A DNA stretch of 64,000 nucleotides from Sphingopyxis sp. BE259 (GTDB taxonomy: Bacteria > Pseudomonadota > Alphaproteobacteria > Sphingomonadales > Sphingomonadaceae): assembly GCF_031457495.1 (NCBI RefSeq), contig NZ_JAVDWM010000001.1, positions 1,662,001 to 1,726,000 of the forward strand, written 5' to 3'. The first letter of the stretch is position 1; each line of letters opens with the position of its first letter. The translations under genes and the position numbers were made by a program. The notes below the pieces were generated by a model. That model was given only the letters and a program-made list of their open reading frames with translations, did no database searches and was not told where the DNA came from. This document shows positions 1-8,238 of this stretch, piece after piece.

Positions 1-422
1 AGAAAGGCGTCGAGCGCCGACAAAGTGCGCGGCCCGATCTCGCGATCAACCGCGATGTCGGGATAGTCGCGCGCGGCGCGGTTGAGCGCGTTGAGCGCGC
101 GCTGCAGGAAGCCGGCGGCGGTGGCGGTGCCCATGTTGACCCCGGTGTCGAACAGTTCGGCGGCGATGTGCGGGGCGCGCAGCGCGACGGTATCGAACCC
201 AGGCCGCAGCCAATAGAGGCGGCGATAGATCGATGCGGCATCGGCGCGCGGCAGGTCGCGCATTGCGCCGACGTAGCCCTGCGCACGCGCGATCGCTTCG
301 GTAATGCCCCAGCAGGTCGGGCCGCCGCGGTCGGCAGGGTGGTTTACATATCGGCCTTCGCGGTCGATGACGGCATCGATCAGCGCGTCGGCATCGACGC
401 GCAGACGGTCAGATTTTGGCAT
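1..422 (-). CDS. GH108-type lysozyme (N-acetylmuramidase-like), partial, runs off left edge
   Basis: Translating the minus strand from the ATG at 422 gives an open frame of 140 codons to the window edge with no stop. The N-terminus carries REGRYVNHPADRGGPTCWGIT-like sequence at about residues 21-41, matching the glycosyl hydrolase 108 pattern E-G-x-Y-V-N-x-(P)-x-D-x-G-G-x-T-x-x-G-I, in which the Glu is the expected catalytic acid. It is followed by the conserved block FDTGVNMGT (about 101-109). This family cleaves peptidoglycan and serves as phage and gene transfer agent endolysin. A GGGAG ribosome site lies 6 bases before the start. No signal peptide is visible, as expected for a holin-dependent endolysin. 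It is divergent from the oxidoreductase at 494; their 71-bp spacer holds a motif shared with the XRE/DUF6456 spacer. The family call is by motif recall; the C-terminus is not in view. Confidence 0.8.
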   Translation of the reverse strand, partial: MPKSDRLRVDADALIDAVIDREGRYVNHPADRGGPTCWGITEAIARAQGYVGAMRDLPRADAASIYRRLYWLRPGFDTVALRAPHIAAELFDTGVNMGTATAAGFLQRALNALNRAARDYPDIAVDREIGPRTLSALDAF

Positions 423-435
423 GAGTCGCTCCCGT

Positions 436-461
436 GGTTCGTTGACCTGGTAAAACGAACC
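436..461 (-). promoter_or_regulatory. 8-bp perfect inverted repeat in the GH108 leader
   Basis: GGTTCGTT (436-443) and AACGAACC (454-461) form perfect 8-bp arms with a 10-base loop. In the minus-strand transcript the hairpin ends just upstream of the GGGAG ribosome site of the GH108 gene, so it could act as an operator or as an RNA hairpin affecting translation. Seen directly; the role is inference. Confidence 0.5.
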
Positions 462-463
462 AT

Positions 464-484
464 ATTGGAATATTGTAGGAAAGA
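464..484 (-). promoter_or_regulatory. Candidate operator, copy 1 of a motif shared with 7491-7513
   Basis: On the plus strand this reads ATTGGAATATTGTAGGAAAG followed by A. The copy between the XRE and DUF6456 genes is the same except for two extra T in the centre. In both places the same strand of the motif faces the same kind of neighbour: read as TCTTTCCTACAA..., it points into the GH108 gene here and into the DUF6456 gene there. It contains TACAAT, a possible -10 element for GH108. Likely a binding site for the XRE protein or the DUF6456 protein; untested. Confidence 0.5.
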
Positions 485-493
485 CTTTTCTCC

Positions 494-1471
494 ATGCGCG
501 CCTTGCAGGTCACCGAATTGTTGCCCGATCATGCCGGAGCCGGGCTGGCCGATGTGCCGGTGCCGGAGCCGGGGCCGGGGGAGGTGCGGGTGCGGGTGTG
601 CGCGGCGGCGGTGAATTTTCCCGATCTGTTGATGACGCGCGGCGATTATCAATTGAAGCCGCCATTGCCTTTTGTTTCGGGGCTCGAGTTTGCTGGTGAG
701 GTTGATGCGTTGGGCGAGGGGGTCTCCGATTGGCAAGTCGGCCACCCGGTGGTCGGCGGCAACCGGTTCGGCGCGATGGCCGAATATTGCGTCGCTCCCG
801 CCGCGGCGCTGCGCGCGAAGCCCGACCGGCTGACGTGGGAGGAGGCCGCGGCCTATCCGGTCGCGTACCTCACCGCCTATGTCGCGCTCGTCCGCTGCGC
901 GCGCGTTGTGCCGGACGAGTGGGTGCTGGTGCATGGCGCGGCGGGCGGCGTCGGGCTGGCGGCGATCGACCTCGCCAAGGCGCTGGGCGCGCGGGTGATC
1001 GCGGCGGCGAGTAGTGCCGATAAACGCGCGGCGATCGCGCGGCTTTATGCGCCCGATGCGGTGATCGATGGCGGGCCGGGGTTTCGCGAGCGCGTGAAAG
1101 CGCTGACCGGCGGGGCGGGGGCCGATGTGATCTACGATCCCGTTGGCGGCGACGTCTTTGACGAATCGACGCGCTGTATCGCGTTCGGTGGGCGTTTGCT
1201 GGTGATCGGTTTCGCGTCGGGGCGTATTTCCGAGGTGTCGGTGAATATGCCGCTGATCAAGGGCTTTTCGGTCGTCGGGGTGCGCGCGGGCGAATATGGC
1301 CGCCGCTTTCCCCAACGTGGGGTGGAGAATGTCGCGGCGATCGATGCGCTGGCGGCAGCGGGCAAAATCCGCCCGCAGGTCCATGCCGCGCTCGACCTAG
1401 CCGATTGGCGCACCGGCTTTGCGATGCTGGAGCGGCGCGAAGTGGTGGGCAAGGTCGTGCTGAAACCGTGA
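494..1471 (+). CDS. NADPH:quinone oxidoreductase family protein (MDR superfamily)
   Basis: 325-aa medium-chain dehydrogenase/reductase of the zinc-free quinone reductase (Qor) type, expected to pass electrons from NADPH to quinones or enones in the cytoplasm. The N-terminal GroES-like half contains VPEPGPGEVRVRV (about 23-35) and the D-Y-x-L-K-P-P-x-P loop. The Rossmann half has the dinucleotide site VHGAAGGVG (147-154). No structural zinc Cys cluster is visible. Length is normal for the family (320-330). The ATG at 494 gives the family-standard start MRALQV; the spacer to the divergent GH108 gene carries the shared operator-like motif only 10 bases before the start, so the gene may be co-regulated or may simply sit next to it. 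Substrate not predictable. Confidence 0.85.
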   Translation: MRALQVTELLPDHAGAGLADVPVPEPGPGEVRVRVCAAAVNFPDLLMTRGDYQLKPPLPFVSGLEFAGEVDALGEGVSDWQVGHPVVGGNRFGAMAEYCVAPAAALRAKPDRLTWEEAAAYPVAYLTAYVALVRCARVVPDEWVLVHGAAGGVGLAAIDLAKALGARVIAAASSADKRAAIARLYAPDAVIDGGPGFRERVKALTGGAGADVIYDPVGGDVFDESTRCIAFGGRLLVIGFASGRISEVSVNMPLIKGFSVVGVRAGEYGRRFPQRGVENVAAIDALAAAGKIRPQVHAALDLADWRTGFAMLERREVVGKVVLKP

Positions 1472-1570
1472 CGAGCCGAGTCCGCTTGCCATAGTTTTGC
1501 GACGCCTGACCTGTCATGTCCGGCGCGGGGTATTCCGGCGACTTTGCCGACCATGACCAAAGGACAGAAT

Positions 1571-1900
1571 ATGAAGACATTGACGATGATTGCCGCCACG
1601 TTCGGCCTGGCGATCCCGGTGATCGCTACCGCGCAGCCGAAGCCCGACGACGGGCGGCTGTTCGCGATGATCGACACCAATGGCGACGGCAAGCTCGACA
1701 AAGCCGAAGTCACCAAAATGGCCGAAATGCGCGCGCAGCGGCAGGGCGACCCGACGATGGCCTCGCCCGACAAGGTCGATGCCTTTATCAAGCATGTCGA
1801 TGCCAATGGCGACGGCGTGATCGACAAGGCCGAGATCGGCGCGATGCGCGATGCGCGCGCCGGGGCGCCGCCGGCAGAGGCGCCATCGAGCGCGAACTGA
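1571..1900 (+). CDS. Secreted EF-hand (calmodulin-like) protein
   Basis: 109-aa protein with a clear Sec signal peptide (MKTLTMIAATFGLAIPVIATA, cleavage predicted near residue 21) and two canonical EF-hand loops, DTNGDGKLDKAE (about 34-45) and DANGDGVIDKAE (about 77-88), each with Asp at loop positions 1 and 5-type ligands and Glu at 12. It should bind calcium in the periplasm. The chosen ATG follows AAAGGACAG at good spacing; upstream in-frame TTG 1544 and ATG 1553 would spoil the signal peptide. The tail is Ala/Pro rich. Small EF-hand exports like this are common in sphingomonads; no partner is apparent nearby. Confidence 0.85.
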   Translation: MKTLTMIAATFGLAIPVIATAQPKPDDGRLFAMIDTNGDGKLDKAEVTKMAEMRAQRQGDPTMASPDKVDAFIKHVDANGDGVIDKAEIGAMRDARAGAPPAEAPSSAN

Positions 1901-1998
1901 GTTGACCTGCGGGCGGCGGTCCCGGGCCGCCGCCCGCCGTTTGCGCGGCGGGTGTCTCGCATGGACGAGAGCGATCGTCCGCCGGACGTCCCGTTCCT

Positions 1999-2071
1999 CG
2001 TCACCCCGGACTTGATCCGGGGGCCATGACTTCAGCGCCGCTGTGGATCCCGGATCAAGTCCGGGGTGACG
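1999..2071. repeat. Intergenic palindrome, family A (CACCCCGGACTTGATCCGGG type)
   Basis: Inverted repeat of TCACCCCGGACTTGATCCGG and its complement, with an unrelated central spacer. The same sequence recurs at 17124, 30752, 38965 and, degenerate, at 20417. It lies between the EF-hand gene and tRNA-Pro. Likely a REP/BIME-like element. Confidence 0.85.
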
Positions 2072-2154
2072 AATGGTATAGATGCGGCTCCAAGAGCCGC
2101 GGCGCGCGTGGCGCGTCCGGCTTGTCCAGCAAATCGTCGACAATTTCGGAAAAT

Positions 2155-2231
2155 TGGTCGGGACGAGAGGATTCGAACCTCCGACCCCCACACCCCCAGT
2201 GTGATGCGCTACCAGGCTGCGCTACGTCCCG
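2155..2231 (-). tRNA. tRNA-Pro, anticodon GGG
   Basis: On the minus strand the sequence folds as a full cloverleaf of 77 nt: acceptor CGGGACG/CGTCCCG, D arm GCGCAGCCTGGTAGCGC, anticodon stem TCACA/TGTGG with loop CTGGGGG (anticodon GGG at 34-36), T arm GGAGG-TTCGAAT-CCTCT, discriminator A and an encoded CCA (complement at 2155-2157). The fold matches proline tRNAs. It is divergent from yajC. Confidence 0.95.
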
Positions 2232-2505
2232 ACCGGCCCGATTGGGCAGGCGTGGCCCCTAGCGCGGGTCGGCGGGGGATGCAAGGCTCTCCTGACGCGC
2301 GATCATCGTGAGGGTCGGTTTGGACCGGGATTGGCCGGGCGCCCTTGACCTCTTCGCCCGCCTCCCCATTTCGGCGGCGCCTGCCGGAGGGGGGGCGCAG
2401 CGACCGGTTGCGCGCACCGCCCCTGCGTGATAGGCGCCGCGCCATATATGCGCGCCGGTTCCGCGACGGAACGGGCTGCGTTTTCAAACGGAAAGTTTTT
2501 CATCC

Positions 2506-2835
2506 ATGTCGACGCAATTGCTTCTGACCCAGGCGGCCGGATCGGGCGGCGGGGCCGCCGGTTTCCTGATGCTGGTCCCTTATCTGCTGATCTTTGTCGT
2601 GTTCTGGTTCTTCCTGATCCGGCCGCAGCAGGTGCGCGCCAAGGAGCATCGCAACAAGATCGCGGCGGTCAAGCCGCGCGATCAGGTGGTGACCGGCGGC
2701 GGCATCGTCGGCAAGGTGACGCGCGTCGACGATGATTTCGCCGACGTCGAAATCGCCCAAGGCGTCAAGATCAAGGTCGTGAAATCGACCTTGGCCGACG
2801 TGATGCAGCCCGGCGCCAAGCCCGCCAACGACTGA
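2506..2835 (+). CDS. yajC: Preprotein translocase subunit YajC
   Basis: 109-aa single-pass membrane protein of the SecDF-YajC accessory complex, which associates with SecYEG and aids late steps of protein export. One transmembrane helix (about residues 19-39) is followed by the family signature FFLIRPQQVRAKEHRNKI and by VVTGGGIVGKV (about 62-72). Length is typical. It is the first gene of yajC-secD-secF, 55 bp before secD. The start ATG lies after an AAAG-rich stretch; the preceding region up to tRNA-Pro shows no other gene. Confidence 0.95.
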   Translation: MSTQLLLTQAAGSGGGAAGFLMLVPYLLIFVVFWFFLIRPQQVRAKEHRNKIAAVKPRDQVVTGGGIVGKVTRVDDDFADVEIAQGVKIKVVKSTLADVMQPGAKPAND

Positions 2836-2890
2836 CGCGGCGGGGCCGGCGCGGCGCGCCGTCCCGTCCTTGCTATCGGACCCAATCGCC

Positions 2891-4504
2891 ATGCTCGATT
2901 TCCCGCGCTGGAAAACCATCAGCATCAGCATCATCCTGTTGCTCGGTATCATCTTTTCCGTCCCCAGCTTTCTGCCCGAAAAGACGCTGAACAGCCTGCC
3001 GTCGTTTATGCAGGCCAAGGTCAATCTGGGGCTCGATCTGGCCGGGGGCAGCCATCTGCTGCTCGAGGCCGACATTGACGATCTGCGCAAGACGCAGCTG
3101 ACCAATATGGAAAAGACGGTGCGCAATGTGCTGCGCGGCGATCGTGGTCCCGATGACGACATCGCGATCGGCGAACTGACGACCGCGGGCGGCAAGATCA
3201 GCTTTCTGATCCGCGACCAGGCGCAGCTCGACGACGCGCGCGACCGGCTGTTCAGCCAGACGCAGGGCGCGGCGATGACCGGACAGCGCGACTGGAACAT
3301 CGACATCATCGATAACACGCGCATCGTGATGACCCCGACTGCCGCCGGACAGACGCAGGCGGTCGCCGACGCGATGGACTCGGCGCGCGACATCATTGAC
3401 AAGCGCGTCAACGACCTGGGCACCCGCGAACCGACGATCATCCGCGAAGGCAATGACCGCGTCGTCGTCCAGGTGCCGGGCTTGCAGGATCCGGCGGCGC
3501 TGAAGGAATTGATCGGCAAAACCGCGCGGCTGGAATTCCGCATGGTCGACCCCAATGCCGACCCCGCCGAAGCCGCCGCGGGCCGCGTGCCGGTGGGCAG
3601 CGAAATCGTCCCCTATGCCGAGGGCGAGGGCAGCGGGGCATCGTTCGAGGTGCTGCGCCGTCAGGTGATGATCAGCGGCGAGCAGCTGATCAACGCCAAG
3701 CAGGGCTTTGACCAGCAAAATGGTCAGGCGGTCGTCAACATCAGTTTCGATTCGGGCGGTTCGAACACCTTTGCCAAGGTGACCGCGCAGAATGTCGGCA
3801 AGCGGTTCGCGATGGTGCTGGACGGCAAAGTGCTGTCGGCGCCGTCGATCAACGAGCCGATTCTGGGCGGCAGCGCCCAGATTTCGGGCAGCTTTACCCC
3901 GGCGACCGCCAATGCGCTGGCGATCTCGCTGCGCTCGGGCGCGTTGCCGGTGAAGATGACGGTGGTCGAGGAACGCACGGTGACCCCCGAACTGGGCGCA
4001 GATTCGATCCGCAAGGGCGCGATCGCGGGGATCATCGCGACCGTCGCGGTGCTGACGCTGATGGTCCTCGTCTATGGCCGCTTTGGCGTTTATGCCAATA
4101 TCGCGCTATTCTTTAACGTGTTCCTGATCATCGCGATCATGGCGGCGTTCAACGCGACGCTGACGTTGCCGGGTATCGCCGGGTTCGTGCTGACGATCGG
4201 CGCCGCGGTCGATGCCAACGTGCTGATCAACGAGCGAATACGCGAAGAATTGAAGCGCGGGCGAAAAGTGTTTCAGGCGGTGGAGCTCGGCTATTCCGAA
4301 GCCAGCCGGGCGATTTTCGACGCCAACGTCACCAACGTGATCGCTGCGGCGCTGATGTTCTGGTTCGGCTCCGGCCCGATCAAGGGGTTTGCCGTGGTGT
4401 TGACCATCGGCATCGTCACCAGCGTTTTCACCGCCGTCACCGTCACGCGGATGTTCGTCGCCCATTGGCTGCGGACCAATCGTCCGACGTCGATCAACAT
4501 TTAA
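2891..4504 (+). CDS. secD: Protein translocase subunit SecD
   Basis: 537-aa inner-membrane protein with six predicted transmembrane helices (TM1 near the N-terminus, five in the C-terminal third) and a large periplasmic part. Visible landmarks are the SecD loop VNLGLDLAGGSHLLLE (about 44-59), RVNDLGTREPTI, and FVLTIGAAVDANVLINERI in the membrane part, the D-A-N-V-L-I segment including the Asp used for proton coupling in this RND-related family. With SecF it pulls exported proteins out of SecYEG using the proton gradient. ATG 2891 gives the usual MLDFPRWK start; an in-frame TTG 21 bp upstream is less likely. Spacing to secF is 12 bp. Confidence 0.96.
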   Translation: MLDFPRWKTISISIILLLGIIFSVPSFLPEKTLNSLPSFMQAKVNLGLDLAGGSHLLLEADIDDLRKTQLTNMEKTVRNVLRGDRGPDDDIAIGELTTAGGKISFLIRDQAQLDDARDRLFSQTQGAAMTGQRDWNIDIIDNTRIVMTPTAAGQTQAVADAMDSARDIIDKRVNDLGTREPTIIREGNDRVVVQVPGLQDPAALKELIGKTARLEFRMVDPNADPAEAAAGRVPVGSEIVPYAEGEGSGASFEVLRRQVMISGEQLINAKQGFDQQNGQAVVNISFDSGGSNTFAKVTAQNVGKRFAMVLDGKVLSAPSINEPILGGSAQISGSFTPATANALAISLRSGALPVKMTVVEERTVTPELGADSIRKGAIAGIIATVAVLTLMVLVYGRFGVYANIALFFNVFLIIAIMAAFNATLTLPGIAGFVLTIGAAVDANVLINERIREELKRGRKVFQAVELGYSEASRAIFDANVTNVIAAALMFWFGSGPIKGFAVVLTIGIVTSVFTAVTVTRMFVAHWLRTNRPTSINI

Positions 4505-4516
4505 GGGAGCGACACG

Positions 4517-5497
4517 ATGCGCTTGCTGAAACTCGTCCCCGACGACACCAATATCGACTTTCTGCGGTGGCGGAAATTTGCGTCCTTCATGAGCTTTTTC
4601 CTGGTCGTCGTCTCGATCGCGCTGGTCGCGACAAAAGGCCTGAACTTCGGGATCGATTTCGTCGGCGGCCAGTCGGTGCGGGTCGAATTCACCCAGGACA
4701 TGCCGCCGATCGATGAAATTCGCGAGAAGGTGAGTCAGATCGGGTTGGGCGAGCCGACGATCCAGCAATTCGGGTCCGACAAGGCGATCTCGATCCGCAC
4801 CGCGTTGCCCGATGGCGACAAGGCGGCGGCCGATCGGGCGGGCGCCCAGCTGGTGGCCGGGGTCGCAAAAGCCTTTCCCACCGCCAAGGCGGGCGCGGTC
4901 GAAACCGTGTCGGGCAAGGTATCGGGCGAATTGATCCGGACCGGGGCGATCAGCCTGGCGCTCGCGGTGCTCGGCATCTCGATCTATATCTGGATCCGGT
5001 TCGAATGGCAGTTCGGCGTCGGGGCGCTGGGCCGCCTGTTCCACGAGGTGTCGCTGACGTTCGGGCTGTTCGCGGTGACCCAGATGCAATTCGACCTGAA
5101 CAGCGTTGCGGCGTTGCTGACGATCGTCGGCTATTCGCTCAACGACACGATCGTGGTGTATGACCGCATCCGCGAAAATCTGAAAAAATATCGCAAGATG
5201 GAGATTGTGCCGCTGCTCAACCTCAGCATCAACGAAACGCTGTCGCGCACCGTGATGACCACTTTGGCGATGCTTCTCGCGCTGGGCGTGTTGCTGATCT
5301 TTGGCCCCGACGTCATTTTCGGCTTTACCGCCGCGATGCTGTTTGGCGTGTTCATCGGCGGCTATTCGTCGGTGCTGATGTCGACCCCGGTGCTGGTCTG
5401 GTTGAAGGTCGGCCCCGACAGCTTCATTCCGCGCACGAGCGCGGGCATGGACGGCGGCGAACGCGTCGAGCGCAAGGACGACGGCGCGGTCGTTTAA
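4517..5497 (+). CDS. secF: Protein translocase subunit SecF
   Basis: 326-aa partner of SecD with six predicted membrane helices. It shows the SecF signatures LNFGIDFVGGQSVRVEF (about 43-59) after TM1, and YSLNDTIVVYDRIREN (about 209-224) in TM4, the conserved Asp pair of proton-coupled SecDF. A good ribosome site (AAGGGAG) precedes the ATG, 12 bp after secD, so the three genes form one transcription unit. The C-terminal charged tail is short. The gene ends at a strong palindrome (5521-5589) that also faces the convergent glycosyltransferase gene. Confidence 0.96.
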   Translation: MRLLKLVPDDTNIDFLRWRKFASFMSFFLVVVSIALVATKGLNFGIDFVGGQSVRVEFTQDMPPIDEIREKVSQIGLGEPTIQQFGSDKAISIRTALPDGDKAAADRAGAQLVAGVAKAFPTAKAGAVETVSGKVSGELIRTGAISLALAVLGISIYIWIRFEWQFGVGALGRLFHEVSLTFGLFAVTQMQFDLNSVAALLTIVGYSLNDTIVVYDRIRENLKKYRKMEIVPLLNLSINETLSRTVMTTLAMLLALGVLLIFGPDVIFGFTAAMLFGVFIGGYSSVLMSTPVLVWLKVGPDSFIPRTSAGMDGGERVERKDDGAVV

Positions 5498-5520
5498 CAT
5501 AAGCCGAAGCATGGAAATTA

Positions 5521-5589
5521 CCGTAGCCCTGAGCCTGTCGAAGGGCGCCTCTCTCGGACAAGCGCCCTTCGACAGGCTCAGGGCTACGG
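5521..5589. repeat. Intergenic palindrome, family D (CCGTAGCCCTGAGCCTGTCGAAGGGCG type)
   Basis: Perfect 27-bp arms (5521-5547 and 5563-5589) around a 15-base loop, between convergent secF and the glycosyltransferase. The same arms recur at 27140-27257. It may serve as a bidirectional transcription end, though no T-run follows. Confidence 0.9.
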
Positions 5590-5608
5590 TCCCTTTGGCT
5601 TGGGCGAT

Positions 5609-6778
5609 TTACCGACCCGCGCAGCGGCGCAGATGATCGGCCAGTTCGCGGCCGTTGTGGTCCCAGTCGAAGCGGCCTGCGAGAGTCGCGGCGACGGCTG
5701 ACGGCGCGGGCGGCGCGGCGAGGATCGCTTGCACCGCCGCCGCAATCGCTTCGGGCGTGCGCGCCGCGATCCTCCCCGCGACGGGCGAGGTGACCAGTTC
5801 GGCGGCGCCGCCTGCATCGCTGATAACGATCGGGGTGCCGCAGGCGAGCGCCTCGACCCAGGCGTTGGCCAGCCCTTCGCTGACCGAGGGCATGACGACC
5901 ACATCGGCGGCGCGATAAAGCTGCGGTAAATCGGCGTTGGCGACCGGGCCCATGACATGGACGCGATCATCGACGCCGAACTGCCGGGCCAGCGCGCGGT
6001 AGCGACCCGCAGCCTCGCCCGCTCCGGCGAGGTGGTAATGGACGCCGGGAAGTGCAGCGAGCGCCTCGATCACCAGAGCCTGCCCCTTGCGCGGGATCAG
6101 CGCGCCGACAGTCAGGATCATCGGCGCATCGCCGATGCCGAGCGCGGCGCGGGCGGCGGCGCGGTCGCCGGGGTGGAAGCGCGCGGTGTCGATGCCGGTG
6201 TAATGAACCGCGACCTTGGCGGGATCGATGCCGATCGCGGCCATGTCGCGGCGCATCGCGTCGGACACCGCGAGCAAGCCCGCGGCCTGGGCTGCGGCCG
6301 CGATCAGTTGCGGCGCGGTCGCGGGATCATGGCCGAAATGGCTGATGTCGGCGCCGCGCGCCTTGACCGAGAAGGGAAGGCCGAGCGCGGCGGCGACGCG
6401 CATCGCGGCGGGGCCGTCGGGGTAGAAGAATTGCGCATCGACGACATCGAATGACTGGCCGCCCACCGCCGTCCGCACGGCGCGTGCGACCATCGCCGGG
6501 TTGAGCCGGGCGCCGAGGCGCGGGATCAGCGGGAAGCGCGGACGGTAGACGGTGAGGCCGTTCCAGCTTTCGGTGCGGGGCAGGTCACGTAGGGCGCGAT
6601 AGCGCGGGTGGAGCGACAGCGGGAAGGGCGGCAAGCCGATCGGGGCGACGATGGAGAGGTCGATGCCGGGCTGCGCGGCCAGCGCGCGCAGGCTGCGTTC
6701 GACGAACAACCCGAAGTTCGGGCGCGCGGCGTCGGGGAAGAGGGTGGCGATGGAGAGGATGCGGAGGGGAGTGGTCAT
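5609..6778 (-). CDS. Glycosyltransferase, GT4 family
   Basis: 389-aa GT-B glycosyltransferase. The N-terminal half has the acceptor-side loop FPDAARPNFGLFVERS (about 14-29); the C-terminal half has VGALIPRKGQ (about 230-239) for the sugar nucleotide and the family EX7E motif SEGLANAWVEALACGTP (about 308-324), in which the two Glu bind the donor. Members move hexoses from UDP- or GDP-sugars to glycan or lipid acceptors. No polysaccharide cluster is adjacent, so donor and acceptor cannot be predicted. It starts at the minus-strand ATG at 6778 and is convergent with secF. Confidence 0.85.
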   Translation of the reverse strand: MTTPLRILSIATLFPDAARPNFGLFVERSLRALAAQPGIDLSIVAPIGLPPFPLSLHPRYRALRDLPRTESWNGLTVYRPRFPLIPRLGARLNPAMVARAVRTAVGGQSFDVVDAQFFYPDGPAAMRVAAALGLPFSVKARGADISHFGHDPATAPQLIAAAAQAAGLLAVSDAMRRDMAAIGIDPAKVAVHYTGIDTARFHPGDRAAARAALGIGDAPMILTVGALIPRKGQALVIEALAALPGVHYHLAGAGEAAGRYRALARQFGVDDRVHVMGPVANADLPQLYRAADVVVMPSVSEGLANAWVEALACGTPIVISDAGGAAELVTSPVAGRIAARTPEAIAAAVQAILAAPPAPSAVAATLAGRFDWDHNGRELADHLRRCAGR

Positions 6779-6797
6779 GGGTCCGCCTCTATCCCCG

Positions 6798-6874
6798 CGT
6801 CATTGCGAGCGTAGCGAAGCAATCCAGAGCAGGCGTAAACCGCTCTGGATTGCTTCGCTACGCTCGCAATGACG
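6798..6874. repeat. Intergenic palindrome, family C (CGTCATTGCGAGCGTAGCGAAGC type)
   Basis: Perfect 33-bp arms 6798-6830 and 6842-6874. Further copies at 34855-34930 (near identical) and 21907-22001 (diverged). Lies between the glycosyltransferase start and the end of the XRE gene. Confidence 0.9.
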
Positions 6875-6897
6875 AAGTGAATGATCGTGAGCATGCC

Positions 6898-7458
6898 TTA
6901 CAGCGATCGGATCAGCCGCACCGCGACGGCCGCCCACGGCGGGTTGCTGACCACTTGTTGTCGTCCGCCGGCGCCTAGCGGCAGCAGGTGGAGCTTTTCG
7001 CCATCGACGTTGAGCAGGCGCGCGAAGAAGAAGCGCCCGGCCGGGCGGGGGACGAGCAGGTCGCGGTTGAGCGCGCTGGTCCAGTCGCTCTCGATCCGGC
7101 GGCACCAGATTTCGTCACCGGCGCGATAGTCGCCGATCGATGAGGTGACGCGGACGGCGACCATGTCTTCGCCGGGTCGCGCGGTGAGCGCCTGTTCGAC
7201 CCGCGTCGGCGCCTGTGCGCCCTCGGCGCCAAGATGTGCGGTGATGGTGAGCTGGGTGTCCTGCGGAAGCTGGACGAGCTCGGCGGCATCGACCCCGAGC
7301 GCCGCGGCGATGCGGTTCATCCAGCCCAGCGACAGGTTGCGGGTGCCGGTTTCGAGGCGGCCGATCGTCTGCGCGGTCGTCGGCGGATCGCAGCGCGCGC
7401 CGACCTCTTCCAGCGTCAGTCCCTTGGCGCGGCGCACCGTTCGGATGCTGTTGATCAT
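6898..7458 (-). CDS. XRE-family repressor-like regulator with LexA/CI-like C-terminal domain
   Basis: 186-aa protein starting at the ATG at 7458 (MINSIRTVRRAKGLTLEEVG), preceded by GAAGG at 7-base spacing. Residues 1-60 are a Cro/CI-type helix-turn-helix with TLEEVGARC, TTAQTIGRLE and a capping helix, followed by a linker and a region (about 95-186) that looks like the LexA/CI dimerisation fold (MVAVRVTSSIGDYRAGDEIW). I see no clear S24 Ser/Lys catalytic pair, so self-cleavage is not supported. It is divergent from the DUF6456 gene, the two starts 88 bp apart with a palindrome-like motif exactly midway. Such repressor/DUF6456 pairs resemble RogA-GafY control of gene transfer agents in Caulobacter; that link is inference. 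Confidence 0.8.
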   Translation of the reverse strand: MINSIRTVRRAKGLTLEEVGARCDPPTTAQTIGRLETGTRNLSLGWMNRIAAALGVDAAELVQLPQDTQLTITAHLGAEGAQAPTRVEQALTARPGEDMVAVRVTSSIGDYRAGDEIWCRRIESDWTSALNRDLLVPRPAGRFFFARLLNVDGEKLHLLPLGAGGRQQVVSNPPWAAVAVRLIRSL

Positions 7459-7490
7459 CGCAAAACCTTCAAATAACCAAATCGGTTTCT

Positions 7491-7513
7491 TCTTTCCTAC
7501 AAAATATTCCAAT
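7491..7513 (+). promoter_or_regulatory. Candidate operator, copy 2 of the motif at 464-484, with overlapping -35-like box
   Basis: The plus strand reads TCTTTCCTACAAAATATTCC followed by AAT; the copy at 464-484 differs only by lacking two central A/T. It is centred between the XRE and DUF6456 starts, about 33 bases from each. On the minus strand TTGACA (7511-7516) overlaps its edge and could be the -35 box of the XRE gene. An autoregulatory operator is the simplest reading. Confidence 0.5.
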
Positions 7514-7546
7514 GTCAAGGCCGGTCGCGACACAGAGGAGATTGGA

Positions 7547-8029
7547 ATGACCGCACGCCAGCTTGCCACGCGCCTGCATCCCGATGACCGCATCGACCCC
7601 GCCAAGCGCGGCCCCCAGGTCATGCGCCAAGTAACGATCAACATCGCCGAGAGCCCGATCGCCTGGCTGGCGGCGCGGGGTCACTTGACCGACGCGCAGT
7701 TAGGTGCGGGCGAACGGCTGCGCGCCGATTATGAGCGGGCGGGCCTGTCGGCGCGGGTGACGATGCGCTGGGACGCGGCGCCCCCGGCGAAAAGCCGCGG
7801 CGGCGCGCGGGCTTCGGATGCGTCGCTGGCGCGGATCGACGCGCATCGGCGGTTTCATGGCGCACTCGATGCGGTGGGGCCGGGGCTCGCGGACATTTGC
7901 TGGCGGGTGATTTGTGCGGGTGAGGGAATAAGCGGGGCGGAGAAGGCGCTGGGGTGGCCGACGCGGTCGGGGAAGCTGGTGCTGGGGCTGGCGCTGGATC
8001 GGTTGGCGCAGTTTTACGGAATGGCGTGA
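7547..8029 (+). CDS. DUF6456-domain protein (possible GafY/GafA-N-type GTA activator)
   Basis: 160-aa protein. After a 35-residue basic leader it shows the DUF6456 pattern: ESPIAWLAARG, LTDAQLGAGERLRADYE, SARVTMRWD (about 35-83), then a variable linker and ICWRVICAGEGISGAEKALG with a final helix (about 121-158). From memory, this domain forms GafY of Caulobacter and the N-terminal part of GafA of Rhodobacter, activators of gene transfer agent clusters. The ATG at 7547 follows GAGGAG at suitable spacing; longer upstream frames run through the divergent regulator and are not used. No GafZ-like sigma-related partner is seen downstream; a palindrome follows. Confidence 0.75.
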   Translation: MTARQLATRLHPDDRIDPAKRGPQVMRQVTINIAESPIAWLAARGHLTDAQLGAGERLRADYERAGLSARVTMRWDAAPPAKSRGGARASDASLARIDAHRRFHGALDAVGPGLADICWRVICAGEGISGAEKALGWPTRSGKLVLGLALDRLAQFYGMA

Positions 8030-8093: not shown

Positions 8094-8238
8094 CGACCGG
8101 AAGTAGACGTTCCGCATTTCTTGACTTCGTCATCCCCGCGAAAGCGGGGACCCAGAGCGTGCGTCGGCGGGCCTGTCCCTGGGTTCCCGCTTTCGCGGGA
8201 ATGACGAGGGTGGGGAATAGCCGCCCCCCACCCCAAAG
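8094..8238. repeat. Composite palindromic element, copy 1 (family B core 8128-8206)
   Basis: Core arms CGTCATCCCCGCGAAAGCGG... and its near complement ending at 8206, flanked by CGACCGGAAGTAGACGTTCC (8094-8113) on one side and CCACCCCAAAG (8228-8238) on the other. The same flank-core-flank order occurs at 33981-34123, 38811-38954 (reverse) and 55500-55632, and the flanks also surround a different core at 17095-17243. Confidence 0.8.

Follow-up and report, generated by a model that had tools for sequence, protein, structure and literature searches.

The window, that is, the whole stretch of 64,000 nucleotides from Sphingopyxis sp. BE259 analysed here, features a near-identical motif in two short spacers between divergent genes: one in front of a GH108 endolysin gene, the other between the genes for an XRE regulator and for a DUF6456 protein, a homologue of known activators of gene transfer agents (GTA). 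A sequence-only reading had proposed that one regulator binds both sites, linking an endolysin to a GTA switch. Here the motif is placed within a longer composite, which is probably the control element of a GTA regulon. The features of the locus are listed below, with the evidence for each in brackets.

3..422, minus strand: GH108 endolysin gene, first 140 codons in the window (PF05838, E 1.9e-25; PG_binding_3, 5.2e-19)
458..468, no strand assigned: palindrome-type AACC-N5-GG of the GH108 promoter, CC-N5-GGTT when read toward GH108 (sequence, Sphingopyxis alignment, composite scan)
464..484, plus strand: motif copy 1, ATTGGAATATTGTAGGAAAGA (sequence, window shuffles, genome scan)
474..483, minus strand: CTTTCCTACA element, toward GH108 (sequence, CTKTCCTACA scans)
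494..1471, plus strand: NAD(P)H quinone oxidoreductase (PIG3-like) gene, divergent neighbour of GH108 (sequence analysis)
6898..7458, minus strand: XRE regulator, 186 amino acids, modelled as a LexA/cI-like two-domain repressor (profile, fold model)
7475..7487, no strand assigned: AACCAAATCGGTT palindrome, 16 bp ahead of the start codon of XRE and proposed as its operator (sequence, spacer comparisons)
7491..7513, minus strand: motif copy 2, ATTGGAATATTTTGTAGGAAAGA (sequence, window shuffles, genome scan)
7492..7501, plus strand: CTTTCCTACA element, toward DUF6456 (sequence, DUF6456 loci)
7513..7519, plus strand: TGTCAAG, TGGCAAG in other genera (sequence, alignments, consensus)
7547..8029, plus strand: DUF6456 protein, 160 amino acids, homologue of the C-terminal part of GafZ/GafA (PF20057, E 1.1e-41)
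L087:5379-5792, minus strand, outside the window: GTA_holin_3TM holin gene, after GH108 (GTA_holin_3TM, E 4.3e-33)

The GH108 gene extends beyond the window edge (L087:5853-6422, minus strand; 189 amino acids in full) and, with the holin gene that follows, forms a lysis cassette of the type known from the Rhodobacter capsulatus GTA (RcGTA), composed of a GH108 muramidase and a GTA_holin_3TM holin. Direct reading of the sequence agrees with the initial description of the motif: the two copies differ by two T only, both lie in divergent spacers, and their orientation is the same relative to GH108 and DUF6456. When each motif core was searched with up to 3 mismatches, one match was found in the window, against 0 in 100 dinucleotide shuffles. 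The pattern GGAATATT-N0..6-TAGGAAA matches the 3,673,724-base genome twice, at the two copies (reversed control: 0), and a sample of 298 genomes, taken as Sphingomonadaceae and used for all family-wide counts below, 5 times in 4 genomes: the two copies described here, an XRE/DUF6456 spacer (G042), a GH108 spacer (G293) and a site without a recognised gene (G011). The absence of a third copy, noted at first, thus holds for the full pattern, which the genome-wide search confines to the two copies; it does not hold for half of the motif, CTKTCCTACA, whose 24 near-copies in the genome fall in part within dispersed repeats.

The motif belongs to a longer unit, in which the CTKTCCTACA element is accompanied, beside each copy, by a palindrome AACC-N5-GG(TT). 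Both components, the former as CTTTCCTACA on the reverse strand of the motif, are prominent in the two spacers when Sphingopyxis sequences are aligned. The spacers are conserved throughout Sphingopyxis, and for the one on the XRE side conservation extends to Sphingomonas and Sphingobium. Conservation on the XRE side was counted in the 200 bp before XRE at 79 of 80 loci, the remaining one being cut short, with 49 of the 79 Sphingopyxis-like and 30 from other genera: AACC-N5-GGTT is present in 49/49 and 27/30, TGTAGGAMAG in 37/49 and 26/30, respectively. TGTCAAG lies 11 bp beyond CTTTCCTACA here, and its counterpart TGGCAAG 12 bp beyond it in the other-genus consensus. On the GH108 side, AACCATATNGG is found in 30 and TGTAGGAAAG in 26 of 31 Sphingopyxis rows (own sequence counted twice). 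In two Sphingobium GH108 loci, where the oxidoreductase is not adjacent, both CTGTCCTACA and CC-N5-GGTT are found upstream; in one of these (L066) GH108 sits after a tRNA-Pro gene.

Two other readings of these spacers were tried. A LexA box (GAAC-N7-GAAC) fits the GH108 spacer of three Sphingopyxis rows (L037, L044 and L052) by eye, but was rejected, as conservation includes its middle bases and the box is missing from the other rows. No convincing -10 box was seen by eye at 16–18 bp, when TTGMCA and TGTAGGAMAG were considered as an ordinary XRE promoter.

The composite TCCTACA-N5-CC-N5-GGTT (TCCTACANNNNNCCNNNNNGGTT) has 165 matches in 102 of the 298 family genomes, whereas its reversed control has 11; the single composite match in the genome under study is the GH108 promoter. 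Among the matches listed, it lies within 200 bp upstream in at least 36 of the 69 GH108 rows with 60% identity or more, and in none of 31 less similar rows; 19 GH108 rows are outside that count, including G025 (58% identity, cut by a contig end), which has the composite 22 bp upstream. At the best 30 GH108 loci, own locus included, CTKTCCTACA is found in 26, CC-N5-GGTT in 23 and the GTA-type holin in 28.

Gene context was evaluated for 51 composite sites from 50 loci, of which the tool selected 30 and the authors 20, the latter as non-GH108 sites. The gene behind the site is GH108 in 8 cases, a holin in 3 and a terminase-small-subunit-like gene in 19; the remaining 21 have no match in this test. 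Two terminase-like genes of the own genome match phrog_4044, "terminase small subunit", as GTA gp1 does. Among the 21 unmatched sites, the one at L197 lies before the gene for a spike base protein (RCAP_Rcc01079 family, score above the cut-off); the open reading frame (ORF) behind the composite at L212 scores below the cut-off for that family, L213 carries a look-alike, and the gene at L226 is terminase-like by eye. A protein family of about 145 amino acids is encoded directly behind the composite at L185, L186, L195 and L196, also among the unmatched sites; neither PHROGs nor NCBIfam gave a match for the two members tested, and the family may be regarded as a candidate for GTA surface proteins.

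The protein divergent to DUF6456 models as a LexA/cI-like repressor: the predicted structure (mean pLDDT, the per-residue model confidence, 85; pTM, the overall fold score, 0.60) matches the lambda/186 hybrid repressor and LexA, the other rows of the fold listing being mostly helix-turn-helix (HTH) domains, with unrelated HTH-containing enzymes among them. Neither Ser nor Lys is conserved in its C-terminal domain. Searched against solved structures by sequence alone, neither XRE nor DUF6456 gave a match; an XRE profile found HTH domains alone (best E 4.5e-4), plus chance-like ribosomal rows. The DUF6456 model (mean pLDDT 76) gave nothing at E < 1 in the fold search, its weak matches (E > 1) being the sigma -35-binding domains 3hug, 3vep and 3vfz.

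DUF6456 is widespread: a gafA homologue of this type is reported in 196 of 208 alphaproteobacterial genomes (PMC9765227), PF20057 also matches in Caulobacter vibrioides, and 260 of the 298 family genomes contain it. The GTA gene g13 is present in 198, and the two co-occur (both 182, g13 alone 16, DUF6456 alone 78, neither 22; p 0.0014). As a GTA marker, GTA_TIM (PF13547) was discarded, since it gave nothing above the cut-off in the 298 genomes (one weak match, E 0.001), against 198 for g13. Among the matches listed, DUF6456 lies by eye within 50 kb of g13 in 25 genomes, always upstream and on the same strand (25/25), and in 5 of 30 DUF6456 loci GTA gp1/gp2 fall within the same 3 kb; in the own genome 0.53 Mb separate DUF6456 from the GTA cluster. 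XRE and DUF6456 form a divergent pair in 29 of 30 loci; the one exception begins near a contig end. The DUF6456 protein, with its 160 amino acids, is devoid of an N-terminal DnaA-like domain. Bac_DnaA_C has one match in the own genome, a frame of 510 amino acids taken as DnaA itself; accordingly, no GafY-like (DnaA domain IV-like) protein is detected there.

The two components of the composite behave differently where DUF6456 is missing. XRE was searched in 43 genomes. Of these, 38 lack a DUF6456 match, and XRE is present, in some cases partial, in 24 of the 38; a locus was returned for 15 of these 24, several sharing a genus. In the 160 bp before XRE at these 15 loci, AACC-N5-GGTT is found in 10 and TGTAGGAMAG in 1; in 30 loci with DUF6456, searched strictly over 240 bp, the palindrome is found in 19 and CTKTCCTACA in 22. 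The contrast is marked for CTKTCCTACA (Fisher p 2e-5) and nil for the palindrome (p 1.0), in tests that ignore relatedness and compare groups scanned in different window sizes. In G293, a Sphingopyxis without a g13 match, DUF6456 gives two partial matches and GH108 lies in two frames, holin and XRE are intact, and the element reads TGCAGGAAAG. As the palindrome is kept and the TCCTACA element lost without DUF6456, the former is assigned to XRE, as its putative operator, and the latter to DUF6456, as an element presumably linked to it. The suggestion that one regulator binds both sites does not, therefore, stand as worded: element retention indicates that two elements and two proteins are probably involved. 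At four loci (L037, L038, L047, L053) TGTAGG is replaced by TTTAGG on the XRE side and the GH108 side has lost the same G, a pattern compatible with a single reader for the two sites; in L020, however, only the GH108 side has lost it, and the four loci may be one clade.

The own genome contains an RcGTA-like head-tail cluster, with g13 (TIGR02218, E 1.8e-58), small and large terminase, capsid, DUF2460, and a portal assigned by reading one ORF. An ORF of this cluster (L133:15609-18239) matches the TIM-barrel and N-terminal domains of a non-contractile tail sheath, fused to DUF2460, while GTA_TIM has no match in this genome. It had been asked whether the motif precedes the terminase/capsid cluster. 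The string itself is absent, here and in the other upstream regions scanned, no TCCTACA being found in the own cluster promoter; only the AACC-N5-GG part is present. The own promoter reads GTGCCATATCGGTTA, 7 bases, TTGACATCGTCACGCTGATATGGCACAAG. Upstream regions were fetched from 20 relatives, 3 of which were dropped, as gp1/gp2 were not found; in the resulting 18 (17 plus own), CC-N5-GG is located 8–10 bp before TTGAC in 15, against 17 of 3600 shuffles, the start having been guessed from gp2 in 2 of the 3 misses. With its centre about 15 bases ahead of TTGACA, the palindrome occupies a position that could suit activation as well as repression. A stretch behind TTGACA, TCGTCACGCT, is also conserved, and is here a putative DUF6456 site; the binding element proposed for Caulobacter GafZ is situated between -35 and -10 (PMC11150451).

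Elements, genomic distribution, spacing and gene context are all observed, and make it likely that the composite is the control element of a GTA regulon, coupling lysis, packaging and particle genes through XRE and DUF6456; the pairing of proteins with elements, the sense in which each promoter is controlled and the event that induces the switch are inferred. In ordinary cells, XRE would occupy its own promoter, together with those of GH108-holin, terminase-small-subunit and spike genes, keeping them silent; it would also sit immediately before the -35 box at the head-tail cluster, silencing this cluster as well. The location of the palindrome, so close to the XRE start codon, fits autorepression. 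The GH108-type consensus has 16 bases between CTKTCC and GGTTAT, a gap occupied by the palindrome, whose right half overlaps GGTTAT: if CTKTCC and GGTTAT were -35 and -10 boxes, bound XRE would block RNA polymerase. Upon release of XRE, DUF6456 would be made and would reinforce its own production; lysis, packaging and particle genes would then be switched on together, and the cell would burst, releasing the particles. The link between an endolysin and the XRE/DUF6456 GTA switch, as first put forward, is in agreement with the signal shared in many genera and different neighbourhoods, and with the GTA cluster in this genome. A more specific scheme is offered tentatively: sphingomonads may have lost the GafY half, with XRE taking over promoter choice and a sigma-4-like DUF6456 reading CTKTCCTACA as a -35 box, so that the genes for GTA lysis, packaging and spikes would share a promoter class of their own, whose -35/-10 gap is filled by the XRE operator, overlapping the -10 box.

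Other explanations may be considered. The two copies are nearly identical and 7 kb apart, as a local duplication without shared regulation would leave them, but this origin is hardly credible, given that the same elements precede GH108 in other genera, with other neighbours. It is very unlikely that the elements are ordinary promoter parts, variants of housekeeping -35/-10 boxes recurring by chance, the regulon being then an effect of promoter type: the 16 bases from CTKTCC to GGTTAT, or to TGGCAAG at DUF6456, do resemble the distance between such boxes, and CTKTCCTACA also occurs in dispersed repeats, yet the composite is strongly over-represented, concentrated before GTA-type genes, and absent before the less similar GH108 rows, with the truncated G025, left out of that count, as the exception. 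Finally, a single protein, the GafZ-like DUF6456, might recognise the whole composite as an activator, the presence of XRE being incidental. Its membership in a published family of GTA activators, the weak resemblance of its model to sigma -35-binding domains, and the activator-like place of the GTA palindrome, just upstream of the -35 box, speak for this; what makes it unlikely is that 10 of 15 genomes lacking a DUF6456 match keep the palindrome before XRE.

Several observations weigh against control of a GTA regulon by the composite, beside the limits of the Fisher tests given above. The composite is associated with DUF6456 (both 98, composite alone 4, DUF6456 alone 162, neither 34; p 0.0008), but not with g13 (73, 29, 125 and 71 in the same order; p 0.20); four genomes have it without a DUF6456 match, and G224, without a g13 match, still has composite sites along with XRE and DUF6456. 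Of the 22 genomes with neither DUF6456 nor g13 matches, 15 contain XRE (two partial), which indicates that XRE is not dedicated to GTA only, and has some other use. Of the sites evaluated for gene context, the 21 without a recognised gene include several that look like coding background, and 20 of the 50 loci were hand-picked as non-GH108. In the own genome, the GTA operator GTGCCATATCGGTTA is imperfect, and the terminase-like genes feature CTKTCCTACA upstream with a degenerate palindrome. CTKTCCTACA alone is without specificity, its own-genome matches numbering 24 against 17 for the reversed control.

Of those 24 matches, 14 (9 flagged by script, 5 by eye) fall in a dispersed intergenic repeat containing ...GGCTGGCACAGCGGAATAATGTAGGAAAGG..., found at L088, L089, L092, L093, L098, L100, L102, L104, L106 and other loci. 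The core of the repeat is GATGAAGGCTGGCACAGCGGAATAATGTAGGAAAGG, which resembles the motif of the GH108 promoter minus its palindrome half; GCTTTGGGGTGGGGAGC and a CGTCATTCCCGCGAAAGCGGG stretch often come next. The position of the GGCTGGCACAGCGGAATAATGTAGGAAAGG repeat relative to genes is inconsistent, and for this reason the dispersed GGAATAATGTAGGAAAG family was rejected as a regulon; no Rfam match was found in six loci tested. Within the window, inverted repeats were also seen by eye in the intergenic stretches 5521-5590, 6797-6875 and 8125-8210. XRE without a DUF6456 or g13 match was recorded in G011, G046, G110, G114, G174, G220, G253, G257 and G289.

Among related systems is that of GafA and the endolysin rcc00555 in Rhodobacter capsulatus. 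The DUF6456 part is homologous to GafA, which differs in being a single 382-residue protein that carries an additional N-terminal domain, and whose overexpression raises endolysin and capsid transcripts; an XRE operator or a composite element was not found in the accessible part of that report (PMC9638019). A close parallel is the RogA-GafYZ switch of the Caulobacter GTA (PMC9632790, PMC11150451). There, too, a LexA/cI-like repressor, said to lack key catalytic residues (PMC9632790), controls a GafZ-type activator, and the activators target the GTA cluster as well as accessory loci; XRE shares with RogA the N-terminal HTH and the LexA/cI-like C-terminal domain devoid of catalytic residues. As described, RogA binds at gafYZ and one other promoter, through GGAA-N4-TTCC repeats, whereas here AACC-N5-GGTT is found at many GTA promoters; moreover, GafY, part of that switch, has no detected counterpart. 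The RogA-type operator was searched and found in 0 of 53 XRE/DUF6456 spacers. As AACC-N5-GGTT is present in its place, XRE is considered RogA-like in its working, and is not classed as RogA. Several XRE proteins repress gafYZ (PMC10688885). In Caulobacter, CdxB represses both gafYZ and lypABC, thus coupling GTA activation to lysis through a single XRE-type repressor, as proposed here. CdxB differs in its size (132 amino acids), in its 115 chromatin immunoprecipitation peaks, and in that lysis is mediated by LypABC, not by a holin-endolysin pair (PMC13236601).

Repressors that couple GTA production to lysis are, therefore, an established kind of system. The composite and its spread, the place of terminase-small-subunit-like genes in the regulon, and the division of elements between XRE and DUF6456 were not found in the literature searched, as far as its accessible parts go (PMC9836097 and PMC11409702 among them; subscription papers mostly fell outside). 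Since GTA release kills the producing cell, the coupling of production to lysis is a key decision, which, in the literature read, has been worked out in Rhodobacter and Caulobacter. The composite gives a testable switch in the sphingomonads. To our knowledge, no GTA producer has been studied in this group. An element that lists the regulon would allow scattered accessory genes, for lysis, terminase small subunit and spikes, to be found by a simple scan, and orphan terminase-small-subunit-like genes are indicated as likely GTA parts.

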